Shown in pieces: positions 1,457 through 14,574 of a DNA stretch of 22,270 nucleotides. The stretch is from a virus. A program made the translations under genes and the position numbers. Where the stretch lies: the IMG/VR virus record IMGVR_UViG_3300017917_004979, positions 1-22,270 of that record; one strand, written 5' to 3'. How positions within the stretch are numbered: position 1 is the stretch's first letter; every line of letters begins with the position of its first letter. The notes beneath the pieces were generated by a model that ran no database searches, was not told the origin of the DNA, and saw nothing but the letters and a program-made list of their open reading frames with translations.

Positions 1457-2059
1457 TTATTGAGATACGAATTGACTTATACAAAATCTTCCAAGTTTTT
1501 TATTACGATATTTTTCATCCATGCGAATATCTTCCACTGCATGTCGAATCATGCCTGGAAAAATTACAGTAGTATTATTTCTCAATTTAATATCAATAGA
1601 AAAATCTGAAAAATATAAATCTCCACCAGAAAATTTTTTTGGTTCTTTAAAAAACCAATTTAGTATTGTTATCAAATTAGAATCTCTATGTGGATAATAA
1701 TAATCTCCATTTTCATAGTACGATACTAAAGTTGAATGTGTTCTTGTATCTGAATTTTGGCAAAACCAAGAATTAATTTTTTTGTAATCTTTTACAAGAT
1801 ATTCAAAAACCTTTTCCGTTACCTTTGTAATATTTGAAATCTCAGAATTATAATATAACTGGTTTAAGAATATACCAGAATTTTTTTTGGATTCTACTGC
1901 CGCAGTTATATGAGCAGTGCCAGTTTGATTTGGAGGAAGAAGTTTATGCGGATAGCATAAAAAATCTAACTCTTCCCAAATTGAGATTAATTCTTCTTTA
2001 TTATAAAGATCCTCTATTATGACATAAGGAAATGGATTTACATACTCTTTAATTTTCAT
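1457..2059 (-). CDS. 2OG-Fe(II) oxygenase (prolyl-hydroxylase-like), copy B
   Basis: This 200-aa paralogue of the downstream oxygenase keeps all family landmarks: YYENGDYYYPHRD with H124 and D126, GGDLYF near 145-150, H173 in MIRHAVEDI, and R191 in LGRFCISQF. It begins MKIKEYVNPFPYVIIEDLYNKEEL, aligning with copy A from its residue 5. The ATG overlaps the end of the upstream 52-aa ORF by 11 nt, which suggests coupled translation. The two copies have diverged strongly between residues 40 and 110, so they may act on different substrates. Function beyond the enzyme class cannot be read from the sequence. Confidence 0.75.
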   Translation of the reverse strand: MKIKEYVNPFPYVIIEDLYNKEELISIWEELDFLCYPHKLLPPNQTGTAHITAAVESKKNSGIFLNQLYYNSEISNITKVTEKVFEYLVKDYKKINSWFCQNSDTRTHSTLVSYYENGDYYYPHRDSNLITILNWFFKEPKKFSGGDLYFSDFSIDIKLRNNTTVIFPGMIRHAVEDIRMDEKYRNKKLGRFCISQFVSQ

Positions 2060-3541: not shown

Positions 3542-4118
3542 ATTTTGTCATATTTTGCTTTATACCATTAACTGGCGGTTTTTGTGAGGATGAATTAGAA
3601 AATGCTTTACACATTCCCACCCCCATTTCCATAACATTTGAAATTTTTAGCGCACCATTCCCAGATGAAACTAATTTTAGCATTCTTTTTGCATCAATGT
3701 CAATTGTTGGTGCATGAATAGAAACCTTTTCAGTGCCTTTAATATGCACAGATCCATTTGCATTATCAGATGCTCCATGCCCCGCTTCAATATGAATATT
3801 TCTTGCCTTAAGCAACAGGTCACCATTGTCAACAGTAATTGCAACATTTCCATTTTCGGCAACCATAAAAATTGCATTACTTCCTTCAGGAGTTTTGGCA
3901 CCTGCTTTACATTGCCAAGTTCCTGGACTACTAAAAAGAGTCCATCCAGATCCTTCAGGACCACGATTTACATCAAATGAAAAATAATGAAGTGGATCGT
4001 ATCCAGATGTTATCTTATAAGAGCTAAAAACTGTTTCGTCGGCCCAATATCTGCCAGATTCAATAATTCGATCTGCATTGGAATCAAATTGAGCCCACTC
4101 TGAATGATAATCTGCCAT
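3540..4118 (-). CDS. Baseplate spike or needle-like structural protein
   Basis: This 192-aa protein follows gp5. Its middle (about 85-155) is a run of short beta strands with hydrophobic alternation: NGNVAITVDNGDLLLKA, RNIHIEAG, GSVHIKG, KVSIHAPTIDIDAK. This resembles the intertwined beta-helical needle repeats at the C-terminus of gp5/VgrG proteins. The N-terminus (WAQFDSNADRIIESGRYWAD) is unlike gp5. Its ATG overlaps the gp5 stop by one base (TAATG), so the two are translationally coupled, supporting a role as a separate spike extension or hub-tip protein. In T4 the needle is the C-terminal part of gp5, so a split architecture here is an inference. Confidence 0.6.
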   Translation of the reverse strand: MADYHSEWAQFDSNADRIIESGRYWADETVFSSYKITSGYDPLHYFSFDVNRGPEGSGWTLFSSPGTWQCKAGAKTPEGSNAIFMVAENGNVAITVDNGDLLLKARNIHIEAGHGASDNANGSVHIKGTEKVSIHAPTIDIDAKRMLKLVSSGNGALKISNVMEMGVGMCKAFSNSSSQKPPVNGIKQNMTK

Positions 4119-8332: not shown

Positions 8333-10852
8333 TTAACTTGTAGCTACAATATCTAAAATTTGTTTATCTATATTATTTACACCAGAAGATTGAGAAGTAA
8401 TAATTTGTGAGGTGCTTTGAGATTGATTCATTGGCACATAAACAACATCCCTTATGACTTGCAACTTATTTCTATCATATGATGCTCTTGTTGAAATAGC
8501 AGAATATGAGTTTGCAGAAATAGATGATGGCTTTGTTTGAGCAATTGGTGCCCCACCAGATCTAGATTGAATTGGTTTTATAGATTTTATTTCACCACCC
8601 TGTTTGCTTAGTCCATATTTCTGAGGATTTTTTAAAATATCTTCAGCAAACCCAAATCTATTTCCTTCTTCATCATATCCTTCATATTTTCGAATAAATT
8701 TCATATGCTCAGATTTATTATTGCTTTTCATCATTGAAAGACCTGAGTTATAAGTCTGACCTTCAACAATTGTATATTCTAACTGAGCATAAAAATCTCC
8801 CGGATTTTTATTACTATTTTTTGCCCAATTCAAATATCCCAACCATCTTGCACCAGAAGCTGCATCAATTCTCCATTGGGCCAATCCAAATGCTTTTCCG
8901 TTATCGCCTTTGGCATCAGGTCTTAATCCAGATTCCTGCAAAAGATTGCCAACCATGTAAGCAGCACCAGTATCAGAAAATCCTTTAGATTTATAGAATG
9001 CAATTGCTGCTTTAATTTTATCCTCTTTCCCCGCAGGAACATTCACAGGAGTTACATTGCCAACTTGTGCGTCTTTTTCTTCCGCTGCTCTTTGAGATTC
9101 TTGTTTTGATCTCAACATCGTAATTTTAATCAATTCGGTTAAAGGACTTATACTTTTATAAATTTCATTTCCTAAGTATTGAGTAATCCAATTAGAAAGA
9201 AAAATAGGAAAAGTTTTGCCTGCAATTTTTTGCACTAAGTTGCCCAATCCTGGCATCGTTTTATTCAAAAATTTATAAATGCCAAAAGAAAGTGGATTTC
9301 CAAGAAGATTTCCAATACCTCCAGCGATTGCATTTGCATTTGCTTTTGTAAATGATTGCCCTAAAGATAAATTGATGCCAAGTGCTGCAAATGCACCAAT
9401 ATAAGGCACACTGGATAAAAGATTACTAATATTAACAAACGATTTAGTAATTGTATTTCCAATTAAATCTACAATTTGTTTTTGTGGATTAACACTAGTA
9501 ATTGTTTGTGTCGAAACATTTGTCTGTTGTATACTCTTTTGTGCCGATCCAACATTTCTTGAAGAAGATGGTTTTGATACTGTTTTTCTTCCACTAAAGA
9601 AATTACCAATTCCACGAATAACTCCTCCCAAAAAATATTTTTTTCTTTTTGGTTTTTGATCTGTAAATGAAGAAACTGCATCATATAAAGATCCACCAAC
9701 GATATCTCCAAGCAAACCACCAAGAGCGGCGCCAACAATAGCACCAAGTCCAAATGTGGCGCCGCCGGCGACGGCAGCTCCTAAAGCAGCGCCTAAAGTC
9801 GATCCAACTGCTTTGGCCGCTGCTCTGCCTGGTTTTTCTCTAAGTATGAAAACGTTATATAAAAAATCAATCAACCCACCTATAATTGGAATTCTGCTAA
9901 AAACTTTTCCAGTTGCTCTAACAACACCTCTTCCAAATATATTTCTTGCACCACGAAGAGACATTGCTCCGACATTTCGTGCTCCTCTTTGAAGAGCATT
10001 TCTTTGCATATTTCTTGGAAGATTTTCAATTGCATCTTGACCAAACTTGCGAATAAAGGCATTCCTTCCAAATCTTTGATAATATCTACGTTGAGCACCT
10101 TTTGATACTTTTCCTGAATCAGCAGAAAACGCTTTTCCAGGTCGATCAAATAAATCCAATCCATCAAAAACGGCAGAAAAAATATCCCCGATAACAATTC
10201 CCGCCATCAAAGCATTTACAATGCTAAATTTCTTATCAAGCTCATTGATTGCTACAGCAAGGTCTTTTTCATTTTTATCAATTTGAGCACCAGTAATAGA
10301 ACCTAACATCTTAGTGCCAGCAAGAGTTACATTATAAAATACAGACGCTAAAGCATCAGTTGCTGGTTTTAAAAATTTATTAATCTCTTCCAATTTTTTT
10401 ATAAAATTAGAAACTCCAGTTATAATTTTAGGAATATACTCAAAAAATCTATTAATTAACCACCCAAAAAATATCATTACGATTGCATTTTTAATTCGAT
10501 CAAAAAAACTAGCGAAAGGAAGATTTATCTTTGGTAATTTAATTCGAGATTTATCTTTTCTTTTTTCTAAAATATCCTCCTCCAATTTTTTTTCTTTTTT
10601 ATCTTCTAATATTTTTTCTTCTTTATTATTCTTTTTCAAGTTTTTGTATCGTGTATTCAAATAATTGCCAATATTAATTAAAGTTTCATATATTGAAAAT
10701 AACTTTTTAGAAGAATTTGATTCTGTAGATTTATTGACTACAAGGTTCTTTTTGGAAAGAGATCCTAAGTTTGAAACCTTCACCATCGAAGAAGACACTT
10801 TGATTGATGAAGATTTTGCTGGTGGTAATAGTTTTTGAGTAGATATTGCCAT
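8333..10852 (-). CDS. Tail-interior protein with phage tail-lysozyme domain
   Basis: An 839-aa protein. Residues 1-110 are basic and lysine-rich. Around 117-140 is a hydrophobic helix IKNAIVMIFFGWLINRFFEYI that also occurs in the upstream 643-aa protein. Around 340-386 is a Gly/Ala zipper (STLGAALGAAVAGGATFGLG) typical of tape-measure proteins. Residues about 615-760 look like a phage tail-lysozyme domain: KAAIAFYKSKGFSDTGAAYM, GNLLQESGLRPDA with likely catalytic E640, and AFGLAQW. It probably rides inside the tail or hub and cuts peptidoglycan during infection, replacing the lysozyme that T4 carries in gp5. Its ATG lies 4 bp after the preceding stop. It may be a second tape-measure or hub protein (gp29-like position); the exact T4 equivalent is uncertain. 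Confidence 0.72.
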   Translation of the reverse strand: MAISTQKLLPPAKSSSIKVSSSMVKVSNLGSLSKKNLVVNKSTESNSSKKLFSIYETLINIGNYLNTRYKNLKKNNKEEKILEDKKEKKLEEDILEKRKDKSRIKLPKINLPFASFFDRIKNAIVMIFFGWLINRFFEYIPKIITGVSNFIKKLEEINKFLKPATDALASVFYNVTLAGTKMLGSITGAQIDKNEKDLAVAINELDKKFSIVNALMAGIVIGDIFSAVFDGLDLFDRPGKAFSADSGKVSKGAQRRYYQRFGRNAFIRKFGQDAIENLPRNMQRNALQRGARNVGAMSLRGARNIFGRGVVRATGKVFSRIPIIGGLIDFLYNVFILREKPGRAAAKAVGSTLGAALGAAVAGGATFGLGAIVGAALGGLLGDIVGGSLYDAVSSFTDQKPKRKKYFLGGVIRGIGNFFSGRKTVSKPSSSRNVGSAQKSIQQTNVSTQTITSVNPQKQIVDLIGNTITKSFVNISNLLSSVPYIGAFAALGINLSLGQSFTKANANAIAGGIGNLLGNPLSFGIYKFLNKTMPGLGNLVQKIAGKTFPIFLSNWITQYLGNEIYKSISPLTELIKITMLRSKQESQRAAEEKDAQVGNVTPVNVPAGKEDKIKAAIAFYKSKGFSDTGAAYMVGNLLQESGLRPDAKGDNGKAFGLAQWRIDAASGARWLGYLNWAKNSNKNPGDFYAQLEYTIVEGQTYNSGLSMMKSNNKSEHMKFIRKYEGYDEEGNRFGFAEDILKNPQKYGLSKQGGEIKSIKPIQSRSGGAPIAQTKPSSISANSYSAISTRASYDRNKLQVIRDVVYVPMNQSQSTSQIITSQSSGVNNIDKQILDIVATS

Positions 10853-10856
10853 TTAC

Positions 10857-12788
10857 TTATCCACCAATTCCTCTTCGAGCAGCTGCCATTTGAGTTTGAG
10901 CTGCATTTGGATTTCTTGCCGATCCTGGTGGTATTTCATTGCTAGCTCCCTTTGCACCACCAGATGAAGTTGGGACAGATGTAACACGATCAATTGTTGG
11001 AAGAATGTCCAATCCTCTACCAACAGGTTGTGCAATATATTGAAGATATGCAGAAGCTAATCTTCTTTCTTCTTCAGAGGCAAAAGTTAACATTGCTGGA
11101 GAAGAAGATTTAGTTGCATCTTCTGGATTAGATGCAATAGCAGAAGAATCATCAGAAGTAGAAACTGCCTTTCCTGCAGTGATATAATTTACAAATTTTT
11201 CATGAAAAGATGGGTTTGCATCAACATGCAAATGCTGCCCCAGTCTTCCAGGTGGATCTACACTTCCAGTATATCCTTGTATACCTAAAGACTTACCCGC
11301 TTTAATTTTTTGTCCTGTAGAAACTTTAAGTTTGTTGAGATGACCAAATAATCCAAGAAGTTTACCCTTTTCATCAATTAACTCTACGGAATTTCCATAC
11401 CCATCATTTCTATTACCAGCATACTTGACCACGGCATCAACTGGAGTAGGAACGTCTACATCATAATTATTTGGATTGTCTTTAGAATATAAGACATAAT
11501 CTTTTGTAAGACCATAAGCTCTTTTAGTATCTCCCTTTCCATGATGAGGTTTGAGTTGAGAAAAACTAACTTGTCCAGAAAGTCTGACCCTGCCGCCGCC
11601 ACTAGAATCAATCGCTAATCCGCCGCCGGCAAAAGCACGTCTTCCAGAAGACATTGTTGGTTGATTTGTGCCGCCGCCAAGTTTATTCAATGCCTCATAA
11701 AAATCAACTCCCCAAGTATCTACTGCACTTTTGGAAGATATAAATTCACCCTTTGTAACTTTTGCATCAATCTTATCTCTACCCTCTGGACCCTCACTAA
11801 TTAATCCAGGATCTAAAACTTTAGCACCTCCAGAATATTCTGGTATTCGAATGGCGCCACCACCATAATATTCTGGAACATTAGACGCAAATGCAGTCTC
11901 TGCGGCAGTTGCAAGTCCAAGTCCGATTGTCGGAGCTGCAGATGCTCTCCTTCCACCAAAAGTGCTACGACCTTTCGCTTTATCTGCAAGAGATTTTCCT
12001 TTCGTCAAATCTCGAATCATTTTTACAAGGAAAGAAATCATATTTCTTCCCAACCATCTAATAACCTTAACTAAAGGATTGTTTAAAGCGACAAATAAAA
12101 GTAATAATTTACCAGCATTTCTTGATAGAAAATCGACAATTGCGTCAAAAGTTTTTTTATTTTGTGGATTTGAAATCCAATCAAATAATCGATTAGCTGC
12201 CCATCCCAAAATAATGAGCATAATAGTGTCACGTATTTTTTTAAAGATGTCAATAACAGGTTTAAAAGTTTTCTCTATTCCCTTTAAAATTTTCTTTGAT
12301 GTAGATTCTAATGAAGACTCTTTAGAAGATTTTTTTAATTTATCTTCTTTTTTCTTTTTCTCTCTTTCTTTCTTTTTATTTTCTTTTTCCTCGTTTGACA
12401 GATTTCCCCAAATTTCTCGCAAAAGAGCATCAATCTTATTCAAGATATCAGATTCATCATCTTTTCTTTCAATTAGTTTTCTTGCTAAAGATCCCGGAGC
12501 ATTTGGTTTGTATTTAACTAAAGCACCACTACTTTTAGCATTTGATCCAAATACAACTTTTGGGTTAATTTTTGTTTTTTTAATTCTGACTGATCTTTCT
12601 TTTCCCCTAACTCTTTGATATTCCTCGCGGACCATTATTTCTTCTTCACGAGAAAGACCACTCTTCCCCATGCTGATTTCTGTTAATTTTTCTCGCAAAA
12701 ATCCCTTGTAGGATTCCATATCAATTTCATCGGTTTCTTCAAGTCCTAGTATTCTAAGTATGTCTGTGCTTACTTGATCAACCGCCAT
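10857..12788 (-). CDS. Tape-measure-like tail protein with M23-like domain
   Basis: This 643-aa protein directly follows the gp26/gp51 chaperone region, where lambda-type phages have their tape measure. It has a charged N-terminus with a Lys/Glu-rich coiled coil (about 125-160). A hydrophobic helix IRDTIMLIILGWAANRLFDWI (about 184-204) is shared with the next gene. A module DKIDAKVTKGEFISS, SAVDTWGVDFYEALN (about 339-374) resembles the GEYVI...FLDALN motif of tape measures. The M23 peptidase-like domain (about 436-535) contains VPTPVDAVV, LFGHL and H519-L-H521. The canonical first zinc ligand His of HxGxD is replaced by N441 (NYDVD445). The ATG overlaps the gp51-like ORF by 11 nt. It could act as a tape measure or as an accessory hub protein. 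Confidence 0.65.
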   Translation of the reverse strand: MAVDQVSTDILRILGLEETDEIDMESYKGFLREKLTEISMGKSGLSREEEIMVREEYQRVRGKERSVRIKKTKINPKVVFGSNAKSSGALVKYKPNAPGSLARKLIERKDDESDILNKIDALLREIWGNLSNEEKENKKKEREKKKKEDKLKKSSKESSLESTSKKILKGIEKTFKPVIDIFKKIRDTIMLIILGWAANRLFDWISNPQNKKTFDAIVDFLSRNAGKLLLLFVALNNPLVKVIRWLGRNMISFLVKMIRDLTKGKSLADKAKGRSTFGGRRASAAPTIGLGLATAAETAFASNVPEYYGGGAIRIPEYSGGAKVLDPGLISEGPEGRDKIDAKVTKGEFISSKSAVDTWGVDFYEALNKLGGGTNQPTMSSGRRAFAGGGLAIDSSGGGRVRLSGQVSFSQLKPHHGKGDTKRAYGLTKDYVLYSKDNPNNYDVDVPTPVDAVVKYAGNRNDGYGNSVELIDEKGKLLGLFGHLNKLKVSTGQKIKAGKSLGIQGYTGSVDPPGRLGQHLHVDANPSFHEKFVNYITAGKAVSTSDDSSAIASNPEDATKSSSPAMLTFASEEERRLASAYLQYIAQPVGRGLDILPTIDRVTSVPTSSGGAKGASNEIPPGSARNPNAAQTQMAAARRGIGG

Positions 12789-12954
12789 TTTGTTGCTGTT
12801 TGAGTTTCTCTTCTTCTAAATGTTGCTTCAATAAACCAACATAGACTTCCCTCTCCCAAGGAATCCAGTTTTCAATTTCAGTCAAAGAATATTTATGATA
12901 CTGCATGAGGGAGAAATTAATTTTATAATATGATTCTAAGTCAATATGACTCAT
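12778..12954 (-). CDS. gp51: gp51-like tail-assembly chaperone extension
   Basis: This 58-aa frame begins MSHIDLESYYKINFSLM and contains the helical segment EIENWIPWEREVYVGLLK, ending in a Gln-rich tail. It lies directly after gp26 and before the tape-measure-like gene, the position of T4 gene 51 (hub assembly catalyst) and of the lambda T part of gpGT. The ATG is 2 nt past the gp26 stop, has no ribosome binding site, and lies partly inside a predicted 7-bp hairpin. The frame is exactly -1 relative to gp26 and is open from the slippery site onward. Expression may therefore be mainly as a gp26-gp51 fusion of about 300 aa, or by reinitiation. Sequence similarity to T4 gp51 cannot be confirmed by eye. 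Confidence 0.7.
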   Translation of the reverse strand: MSHIDLESYYKINFSLMQYHKYSLTEIENWIPWEREVYVGLLKQHLEEEKLKQQQNGG

Positions 12955-12969
12955 GCTTATGCGAAAAAA
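12937..12969 (-). promoter_or_regulatory. Putative programmed -1 ribosomal frameshift signal
   Basis: In the gp26 frame the codons are TCT TTT TTC GCA TAA, giving the heptamer T TTT TTC (12969..12963), which fits X XXY YYZ. After a 9-nt spacer come TGAGTCA (12953..12947), loop TAT, and TGACTTA (12943..12937), forming a 7-bp stem with one G-U pair. The -1 frame then reads R-I-S-M and continues through the gp51-like ORF with no stop. Confidence 0.75.
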
Positions 12970-13679
12970 GATGCTAATCCCTCCAAAACGACATTACTCT
13001 TCACCTTTGTTTTTGGATTTGTAATTTCAATTTGATGACTCAGTTTTGGCATTGTTTCAAAGAATTTTTCAATTTCTTTAAACTGTTTAGAATTTAACTG
13101 CTCAAGAAATTCCACTAATTCTTTTTTAGAAACTTCTTCAGATGACCAAGCCTCATCTTCACTATAAATTTGATCGATACAAGAAGCAATCAAATCAAAT
13201 GATTGATCAATATTTGCATTATTTCCAGTAAAATCAAAGTTGTTTTTAATAAACTGCTCTAATGAAGGATATTTCAATCTCATTGTCAGTTTATCATCAA
13301 GAATAATATCTCGATTATGAGATTCTGATTCTTTTACTTGAATCTCATCAAGATTGATCTTGACAGAAACGACAGTTTCTTCATCGTCTGGACAAATTAC
13401 ACTAACTTCAACATCTTCTCCAACAGACTTTCCACGAATATTAAGAAACAAATATTCAATATCAAATGTTGGAAGTTGCTCTATTTTAATTCCTTTGGTG
13501 ACAATACAATTATTTAAAACTGTTTTAATTGCTGTAGAAATTTGCTTGTTATCTTGACTTTCTAAAGCCAAGACTAAAAGTTTTTCTTCTTTAACTAAAA
13601 ATGGTCTATATTTGATTTCTTGTTTTGTTGATGGTAATTCAAGAAAATATGTAGGAGTAGCAATCTTTGGTAAAGGCAT
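12957..13679 (-). CDS. gp26: Baseplate hub assembly protein gp26 (tail chaperone)
   Basis: This 240-aa protein starts MPLPKIATPTYFLELPST and contains YRPFLVKEEKLLVLALES and IYSEDEAWSSEEVSKKELVEFLEQL, with EKFFETMPKLSHQIEI near the end. These are characteristic of the T4 gp26 / T4-type baseplate protein family found across T4-like phages. T4 gp26 is needed for hub assembly and is viewed as the counterpart of siphophage tail-assembly chaperone gpG. An ATAAATA late box lies 25 nt before the ATG; no Shine-Dalgarno is evident. The last codons form a slippery heptamer leading into the gp51-like frame (see the frameshift feature). Length is slightly above the T4 protein. Confidence 0.85.
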   Translation of the reverse strand: MPLPKIATPTYFLELPSTKQEIKYRPFLVKEEKLLVLALESQDNKQISTAIKTVLNNCIVTKGIKIEQLPTFDIEYLFLNIRGKSVGEDVEVSVICPDDEETVVSVKINLDEIQVKESESHNRDIILDDKLTMRLKYPSLEQFIKNNFDFTGNNANIDQSFDLIASCIDQIYSEDEAWSSEEVSKKELVEFLEQLNSKQFKEIEKFFETMPKLSHQIEITNPKTKVKSNVVLEGLASFFA

Positions 13680-13719: not shown

Positions 13720-14574
13720 TCAGAGAAGAGGAATTCCTGTCCTTTCAATAAATTGAGATCTTACAATATCTGCAGCTTCAATAGCGTCCAAATTTCCAGA
13801 AGCAAGTGCTTCGGTGTATTGAATATCAATTGCTTCTATTTTGTCACCATACCCAAAAGCTTTTTCTTGTCTGCTCGCTAATGGGGAAGGTTGTGGAGCA
13901 GGAGCAATGTATTCACCAATTGGATCAAATATGTATCTATCGTATGAAAACGCCACACTGCATTTTAAAATGTCTGAAGAATCATAACTAACAGGCATTG
14001 TAGTAATATCGATTGGAAAAGCATTAATAAATCGATATGATATTTTTGATGATATTTCTGCATCTTTATTGAATTTTGCAACATACAAGTTGCATTTATA
14101 AGCATCTGGATAATTGAATCTAAAAGATGCTCTGCTACTACTTTCATATATTGCCTGACCAAGACCATATGGACTTGCAATATAACTCATCCAACCCTCA
14201 AAAAATTTAATTACTTTGTATTCATCATCTACATAAAAGGTAAGTTGAAGATCATTGTAAATTTTGCGATATGGAAATTTTTGAGTAACTCCAGGAAAAT
14301 CGCTTGTCATTTCACTGGTGGCAAAAGAATTTCCAGGTAAAGAAGCTTCGCTGCACAACATACCCAAATTTTCACCAATAAATCTAGAGTCAACTCCACG
14401 AGTAGATAACAACTCTTTTAATGTTTTTTTGGCACCCGAAGATTTTAATCCACCTGCTGCAATTTCTGTCAATGGTGCTAAGTAAACATAATATTGCGAA
14501 GTCTGGGCAAGACTAGAAAATTTACTTAAAATTTCAGATGTTTTATAATGTCTGACTGGAATATTTGCGGACAT
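13720..14574 (-). CDS. gp54: Baseplate tail-tube initiator, gp54-like
   Basis: This 284-aa protein shows the gp19/gp54 tail-tube fold pattern: CSEASLPGNSF, then FPYRKIYNDLQLTFYVDDEY, FFEGWMSYIA, FNYPDAYKCNLYVAKFN, YRFINAFPIDITTMPVSY, and ILKCSVAFSYDRYIF. gp54 sits on the completed baseplate and, with gp48, starts tube polymerisation. T4 gp54 is 320 aa. The gene is divergent from gp4 and the first gene of the minus-strand structural run. The closely related tube protein gp19 normally lies elsewhere in T4-like genomes, so gp54 is the better call given nearby gp48, gp53 and gp26. The C-terminal 60 residues are Pro/Ala/Ser-rich then helical. Confidence 0.72.
   Translation of the reverse strand: MSANIPVRHYKTSEILSKFSSLAQTSQYYVYLAPLTEIAAGGLKSSGAKKTLKELLSTRGVDSRFIGENLGMLCSEASLPGNSFATSEMTSDFPGVTQKFPYRKIYNDLQLTFYVDDEYKVIKFFEGWMSYIASPYGLGQAIYESSSRASFRFNYPDAYKCNLYVAKFNKDAEISSKISYRFINAFPIDITTMPVSYDSSDILKCSVAFSYDRYIFDPIGEYIAPAPQPSPLASRQEKAFGYGDKIEAIDIQYTEALASGNLDAIEAADIVRSQFIERTGIPLL

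Follow-up and report, generated by a model that had tools for sequence, protein, structure and literature searches.

We asked whether translation of gene 26 in a marine T4-like phage always ends at the stop codon or whether some ribosomes shift into the -1 frame and continue into the adjacent 51-like open reading frame (ORF). The question is raised by one junction in the stretch of viral DNA analyzed here (22,270 nucleotides, hereafter the window), where gp26 ends in TTG GAG GGA TTA GCA TCT TTT TTC GCA TAA and a 58-aa ORF (12954-12778, minus strand), starting with the ATG at 12954, sits in the -1 frame of gp26. The original prediction for this locus was a frameshift like that of lambda G/GT. 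Comparative evidence across relatives supports this reading, and we consider it highly likely that the locus encodes a G/GT-type pair of tail-assembly chaperones made by -1 frameshifting at the end of gp26.

The gp26 junction in the window

The predicted elements were all found where they had been placed: a heptamer, T TTT TTC, in frame at the end of gp26 (12969-12963), a 9-nt spacer (12962-12954, minus strand), and a 7-bp stem with a 3-nt loop. No stop codon interrupts the -1 frame across the junction, where it runs through R-I-S-M into the 58-aa ORF, and translation of the predicted slip product gave 300 aa, in agreement with the approximate length anticipated, with ...ASFF followed by RISMSHIDLESYYK... 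at the junction (Table 1). Under the proposed mechanism, gp26 would be the short form of the chaperone. With P-site UUU and A-site UUC on U UUU UUC, a fraction of ribosomes would slip back one base, read CGC (Arg), go past the gp26 stop, and enter the 51-like frame to produce the long form. Like lambda gpG and gpGT, the two forms would coat the tape measure and bring in tail-tube subunits. That slippage occurs, and any rate assigned to it, we infer from sequence. Tryptic peptides predicted for the junction are SNVVLEGLASFFR for the fusion and SNVVLEGLASFFA for the short-form end in the window, and ENEVVLEGLQSFFR and ENEVVLEGLQSFFV, respectively, in P-SSM2. In-frame XXXYYYZ heptamers number 88 per 6,909 codons in the main ORFs of the AT-rich window (~1.3% of codons), and for this reason a heptamer near a gene end is weak evidence in a single genome; the one at the junction owes its significance to its conservation in relatives.

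Table 1. Features at and around the gp26 junction, listed in the direction of transcription
Feature	Position	Strand	Support
Tail tube protein, directly upstream of gp26	13720..14574	-	PF23849 1.1e-18; phrog_45 1.4e-39
gp26, putative short form of tail-assembly chaperone (TAC-N, G-like), 240 aa	12957..13679	-	PF12322 T4_baseplate 3.6e-75; phrog_150 9.4e-81
GGAGGGA, Shine-Dalgarno-like, ends 8 nt 5′ of heptamer; candidate stimulator	12978..12984	-	
Slippery heptamer T TTT TTC, 0 frame, 10 nt upstream of stop	12963..12969	-	kept in 88/89 non-redundant relatives
Extension in the -1 frame, 61 aa counted from slip site, with T-like domain ("gp51")	12778..12962	-	phrog_634 1.6e-27; phrog_150 columns 241-281 at 5.9e-05
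TAA stop of gp26; -1 shift would bypass it	12957..12959	-	
Hairpin 9 nt 3′ of heptamer, with 7-bp stem and 3-nt loop; candidate stimulator	12937..12953	-	group-level folding
Following gene of 643 aa with M23 peptidase domain; its position makes it a tape-measure candidate	10857..12788	-	PF01551 5.9e-11

The gene following the junction had been described as tape-measure-like, which is plausible from its position, while its matches to tape-measure families are weak. It is one of two consecutive large tail genes after the chaperone, the other (8333-10852, minus strand) carrying a phage lysozyme domain (PF18013). In HTVC008M, Cr30, and phiM12, a gene that is either annotated as a tape measure or similar to one is found one small ORF further on. 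Elsewhere in the window, tandem 2OG-Fe(II) oxygenase-like genes (833-1450 and 1457-2059, minus strand; PF13640, with the second below the curated cut-off) lie near virion genes. A search of the window's own assembly returned the window itself and no further copy.

The AlphaFold model of gp26 (pLDDT 87) had no significant match in a fold search of the PDB, and a PDB sequence search returned no significant homologue. Among the matches listed by Foldseek, the highest probabilities belonged to 3FGX (0.51) and 2OB9 (0.47), at a nonsignificant E value of about 3, and a viral fold search returned mostly gp26-family and unnamed phage proteins. Both 2OB9 (HK97 gp13) and 3FGX (Rbstp2171) are phage tail-assembly chaperones (PMC9603447), of about 100 residues compared to 240 for gp26. 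The pair likely functions as lambda gpG and gpGT do, to judge from its location behind the tail tube gene, its layout as two forms, T4 genetics, and this weak fold match. The short form would coat the tape measure, and the rarer long form would recruit tube subunits through its tail.

The putative slip site and the -1 frame in relatives

We compared the junction across 191 related gp26 genes with readable ends, as well as a non-redundant set thinned to <85% protein identity; loci were treated as independent, such that the conservation statistics ignore shared ancestry. Heptamer, frame, and position are kept in this comparison, a kind of check suggested with the original prediction: in 188 of the 191 relatives, the gp26 end has an in-frame T TTT TT(C/A/T) whose distance to the stop is 7 to 13 nt (mostly 10 nt), and the 51-like frame is in -1. 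The same holds for 88/89 of the non-redundant set (TTTTTTC in 61 and TTTTTTA in 22, at 10 nt, and five others), and the heptamer persists with fixed phase and place in relatives with as little as about 20 to 30% protein identity. Carriers include marine cyanophages, pelagiphage HTVC008M, Caulobacter phage Cr30, Stenotrophomonas phage Ps15, and Agrobacterium phage OLIVR5, along with KVP40-like, Aeh1-like, and phage-65-like phages; Sinorhizobium phage phiM12 and Acinetobacter phage nACB2 have TTTTTTT, and Variovorax phage V45v66 has TTTTTTC. Two exceptions have a gp26 frame that is broken relative to near-identical relatives. In L177 the frame stops inside gp26 while the tblastn match spans the whole gene, and in Stenotrophomonas phage IME-SM1 (L189) the reading frame proceeds in what is the +1 frame of the closely related L089; both are probably indels or sequencing errors, judging from these alignments. 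Separately, the 51-like ORF of L029 is shortened in its first half near position 3718 (39 versus about 60 codons), with the heptamer intact.

Substitution patterns around the heptamer indicate that selection at the slip site is acting on nucleotides, beyond the protein alone. The codon preceding the slip may be AGT, TCT, GAT, AAT, ACT, GCT, or CAT, with a final T in every case (P of about 1e-17 given the amino acids and codon usage, assuming independent loci). Synonymous variation at both Phe codons is zero in the window's wider clade, compared to a mean of 0.40 over codons 15 to 120 from the end. Furthermore, a whole clade has replaced Phe with Leu (TTC to TTA), a change that leaves the heptamer slippery; 22 non-redundant loci have it.

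The -1 extension is itself open and conserved. Conservation of the -1 peptide begins at the first post-slip codon, usually Arg, with the motif R-[IVL]-x-[LM], and extends into the residues that follow. A start codon of its own is dispensable, as 35/87 non-redundant loci, including one from the window's own clade (L011), have no ATG, GTG, or TTG in the first 10 -1 codons, and in such loci the first start codon often comes 18 to 19 codons in, within the conserved block. The 51-like gene is mis-annotated or unannotated in L086, L088, L092, L093, L094, and many phage records: the -1 ORF is without annotation in Ah1 and ZPAH1, and in HTVC008M, OLIVR5, and BUCT-ZZ01 the gene is annotated from an internal ATG, with loss of conserved residues.

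According to the original prediction, related phages lacking the heptamer, or with gp51 in another frame, would count against a frameshift. Most relatives have both as predicted, but the heptamer is not universal, since some phages keep the 51-like ORF without any XXXYYYZ. These are Vibrio phages D506, K364, and 1.244.A (L090, L197, and L219) and Ackermannviridae SP1, LIMEstone1, and KP6 (L214, L215, and L216), which represent three genera; in all of them, the 51-like ORF directly follows gp26 and is in -1. An ATG overlaps the gp26 stop in the D506-type phages (TAATG) and in LIMEstone1, and ATT occupies this place in SP1 and KP6.

Candidate stimulators and competing explanations

The hairpin pairs 12953-12947 with 12943-12937, including one G.U, and is present as originally drawn. 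In the window alone (-6.5 kcal/mol) it is not significant, with a z score of -1.4 against dinucleotide shuffles and a P value of 0.16 against shuffles preserving the -1 peptide; being not significantly better than shuffles, it was rejected as stand-alone evidence. Significance emerges in relatives, where a hairpin lies 5 to 9 nt downstream of the heptamer. At the group level, folding of the downstream RNA averages -8.5 kcal/mol, compared to -3.4 kcal/mol for shuffles that preserve the -1 peptide. Covariation supports the hairpin in a cyanophage clade (changes on both sides in 20 cells, with 2/500 shuffles as high) and in the TTTTTTA clade (11 cells, 0/500 shuffles); in the window's own clade, the pattern is at most consistent with it. 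Upstream of the heptamer, GAGGGN or GAAGGG starting at 14 nt is used in 57 of the 72 non-redundant loci with a Glu-Gly pair there, compared to 32% expected from codon usage (P of about 4e-16, ancestry ignored). The window's GGAGGGA, a Shine-Dalgarno core 8 nt upstream of the slip site, resembles the dnaX arrangement. It is possible that the Shine-Dalgarno-like element and the hairpin stimulate slippage.

A rival reading has no frameshift: the 51-like ORF would be a gene by itself, and termination-reinitiation at TAAGCATG would start its translation at the ATG at 12954. The window has this ATG 2 nt 3′ of the gp26 stop, an ATG occurs within the first 10 -1 codons in 47/87 non-redundant loci, and the D506-type phages have TAATG and no heptamer. 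However, the remaining 40/87 loci have no ATG there, over a third have none of the common start codons, and conservation starts 5′ of the ATG, which no Shine-Dalgarno sequence directly precedes. Reinitiation would also leave the invariant heptamer unexplained, and we therefore regard it as improbable.

Transcriptional slippage, in which an altered number of U residues in the mRNA would join the frames, draws on the T run itself, which is 6 long in the window and 8 long in HTVC008M-type phages. Six T residues are few for a bacterial polymerase to slip on. What is conserved, moreover, is a codon-phased XXXYYYZ ending in C or A together with the downstream hairpin, neither of which transcriptional slippage needs, and we give it a very small probability, below that of reinitiation. 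The frequency of in-frame heptamers in the window would favor a functionless heptamer arising by chance in AT-rich DNA, but this reading is refuted by the constancy of phase and place in the non-redundant relatives, and we assign it a negligible probability. Ribosomal frameshifting at the heptamer is thus the explanation we prefer.

T4 and other known tail-assembly chaperones

The short form is homologous to T4 gp26 and the fusion to full-length T4 gp51 (hmmsearch 1e-27 and 2e-16, respectively). T4 gp26 matches the short part only, and T4 gp51 matches the fusion over both parts, including the 51-like domain; no match besides genes 26 and 51 was found in the T4 genome. Residues 1 to 201 of T4 gp51 correspond to PF12322, and the protein matches phrog_150 nearly end to end, plus phrog_634. 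We found gp26 in 612 phage records and a match over most of T4 gp51 in 1,334. The T4 proteins, listed as hub assembly chaperones (PMC3004832), therefore belong to the same family, with gp26 as the short form and gp51 as the full-length counterpart of the fusion. As the original prediction noted, 26 and 51 are normally described as separate genes in T4-like phages; in T4 they are divergent genes with no frameshift arrangement, whereas in the window adjacent genes are joined in -1. No heptamer was found in gene 26 of T4-type loci (6 from a viral contig scan with T4 gp26 and eight from a phage collection), even where EFF is retained with FF as TTC TTT, and it therefore appears that the slip site vanishes once a gene of its own encodes the long form. 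One protein pair would thus be made by frameshifting in some lineages and from two genes in others.

This interpretation would account for two earlier observations by Sullivan et al. 2010 (PMC3037559), who described cyanophage gp51 as about 20% of the usual length and gp51 as missing in Aeh1. The 200 residues by which cyanophage gp51 falls short (~80% shorter than T4 gp51) would be those of gp26, reached by frameshifting, and the 51 part of Aeh1 is found at the same slip site. The interpretation is relevant, too, to the statement of Atkins et al. 2016 (PMC5009743) that G-T frameshifting is conserved "except T4." Hundreds of relatives of this phage very probably frameshift at the end of gene 26 as well, judging from the conserved junction, and the two annotations would need to be joined in hundreds of phage records.

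Vladimirov, Gautam, and Davidson (2022; doi 10.1016/j.virol.2021.11.003) reportedly identified the T4-like tail-assembly chaperone genes and seemingly also their poly-T slip sites. According to a passage of the PRFect paper, Vladimirov et al. 2022 found that some T4-like phages have a short gene together with a longer, fused one, and a passage of the Adele paper cites the same work for -1 signals of the poly-T kind in the chaperone genes of T4-like phages. Going by these passages, a frameshift mechanism for T4-like chaperones is most likely already recognized. A family-wide count, the covarying hairpin, the Shine-Dalgarno-like element, start-less loci, and heptamer loss in two-gene loci were not found in the literature examined and may be in Vladimirov et al. 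2022. We offer only tentatively, as the less probable case, that the 2022 paper is mainly about the T4 two-gene solution and that the whole picture would be new. In this picture, the -1 frameshift at 26/51 extends across the family, in Kyanoviridae, in KVP40-, Aeh1-, and phage-65-like phages, and in phages of alphaproteobacteria; a hairpin that covaries and a Shine-Dalgarno-like stimulator accompany it, and the arrangement switches to two genes in T4 or to a junction lacking the heptamer in Ackermannviridae and D506-type phages.

Chaperone genes of Vandenendeviridae and Andersonviridae likewise have a -1 extension at a conserved poly-T motif (PMC12846349), located where the short chaperone gene ends; the motif there is GTTTTT rather than TTTTTT(C/A/T), and the phage families are different. 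With the lambda G/GT tail-assembly chaperones (Levin 1993; Xu 2004, 2013, 2014, as cited in PMC5009743), the locus shares two overlapping frames, a heptamer for a -1 slip shortly before the first ORF ends, and short and long forms. The neighbors are alike as well, with the tail tube gene immediately preceding and a large tail gene following. Lambda slips at G GGA AAG and the window's heptamer is U UUU UUC; the likeness drawn here is one of layout. Unlike lambda, many of the relatives examined here add a downstream hairpin and an upstream GGAGG-like element to this shared layout.
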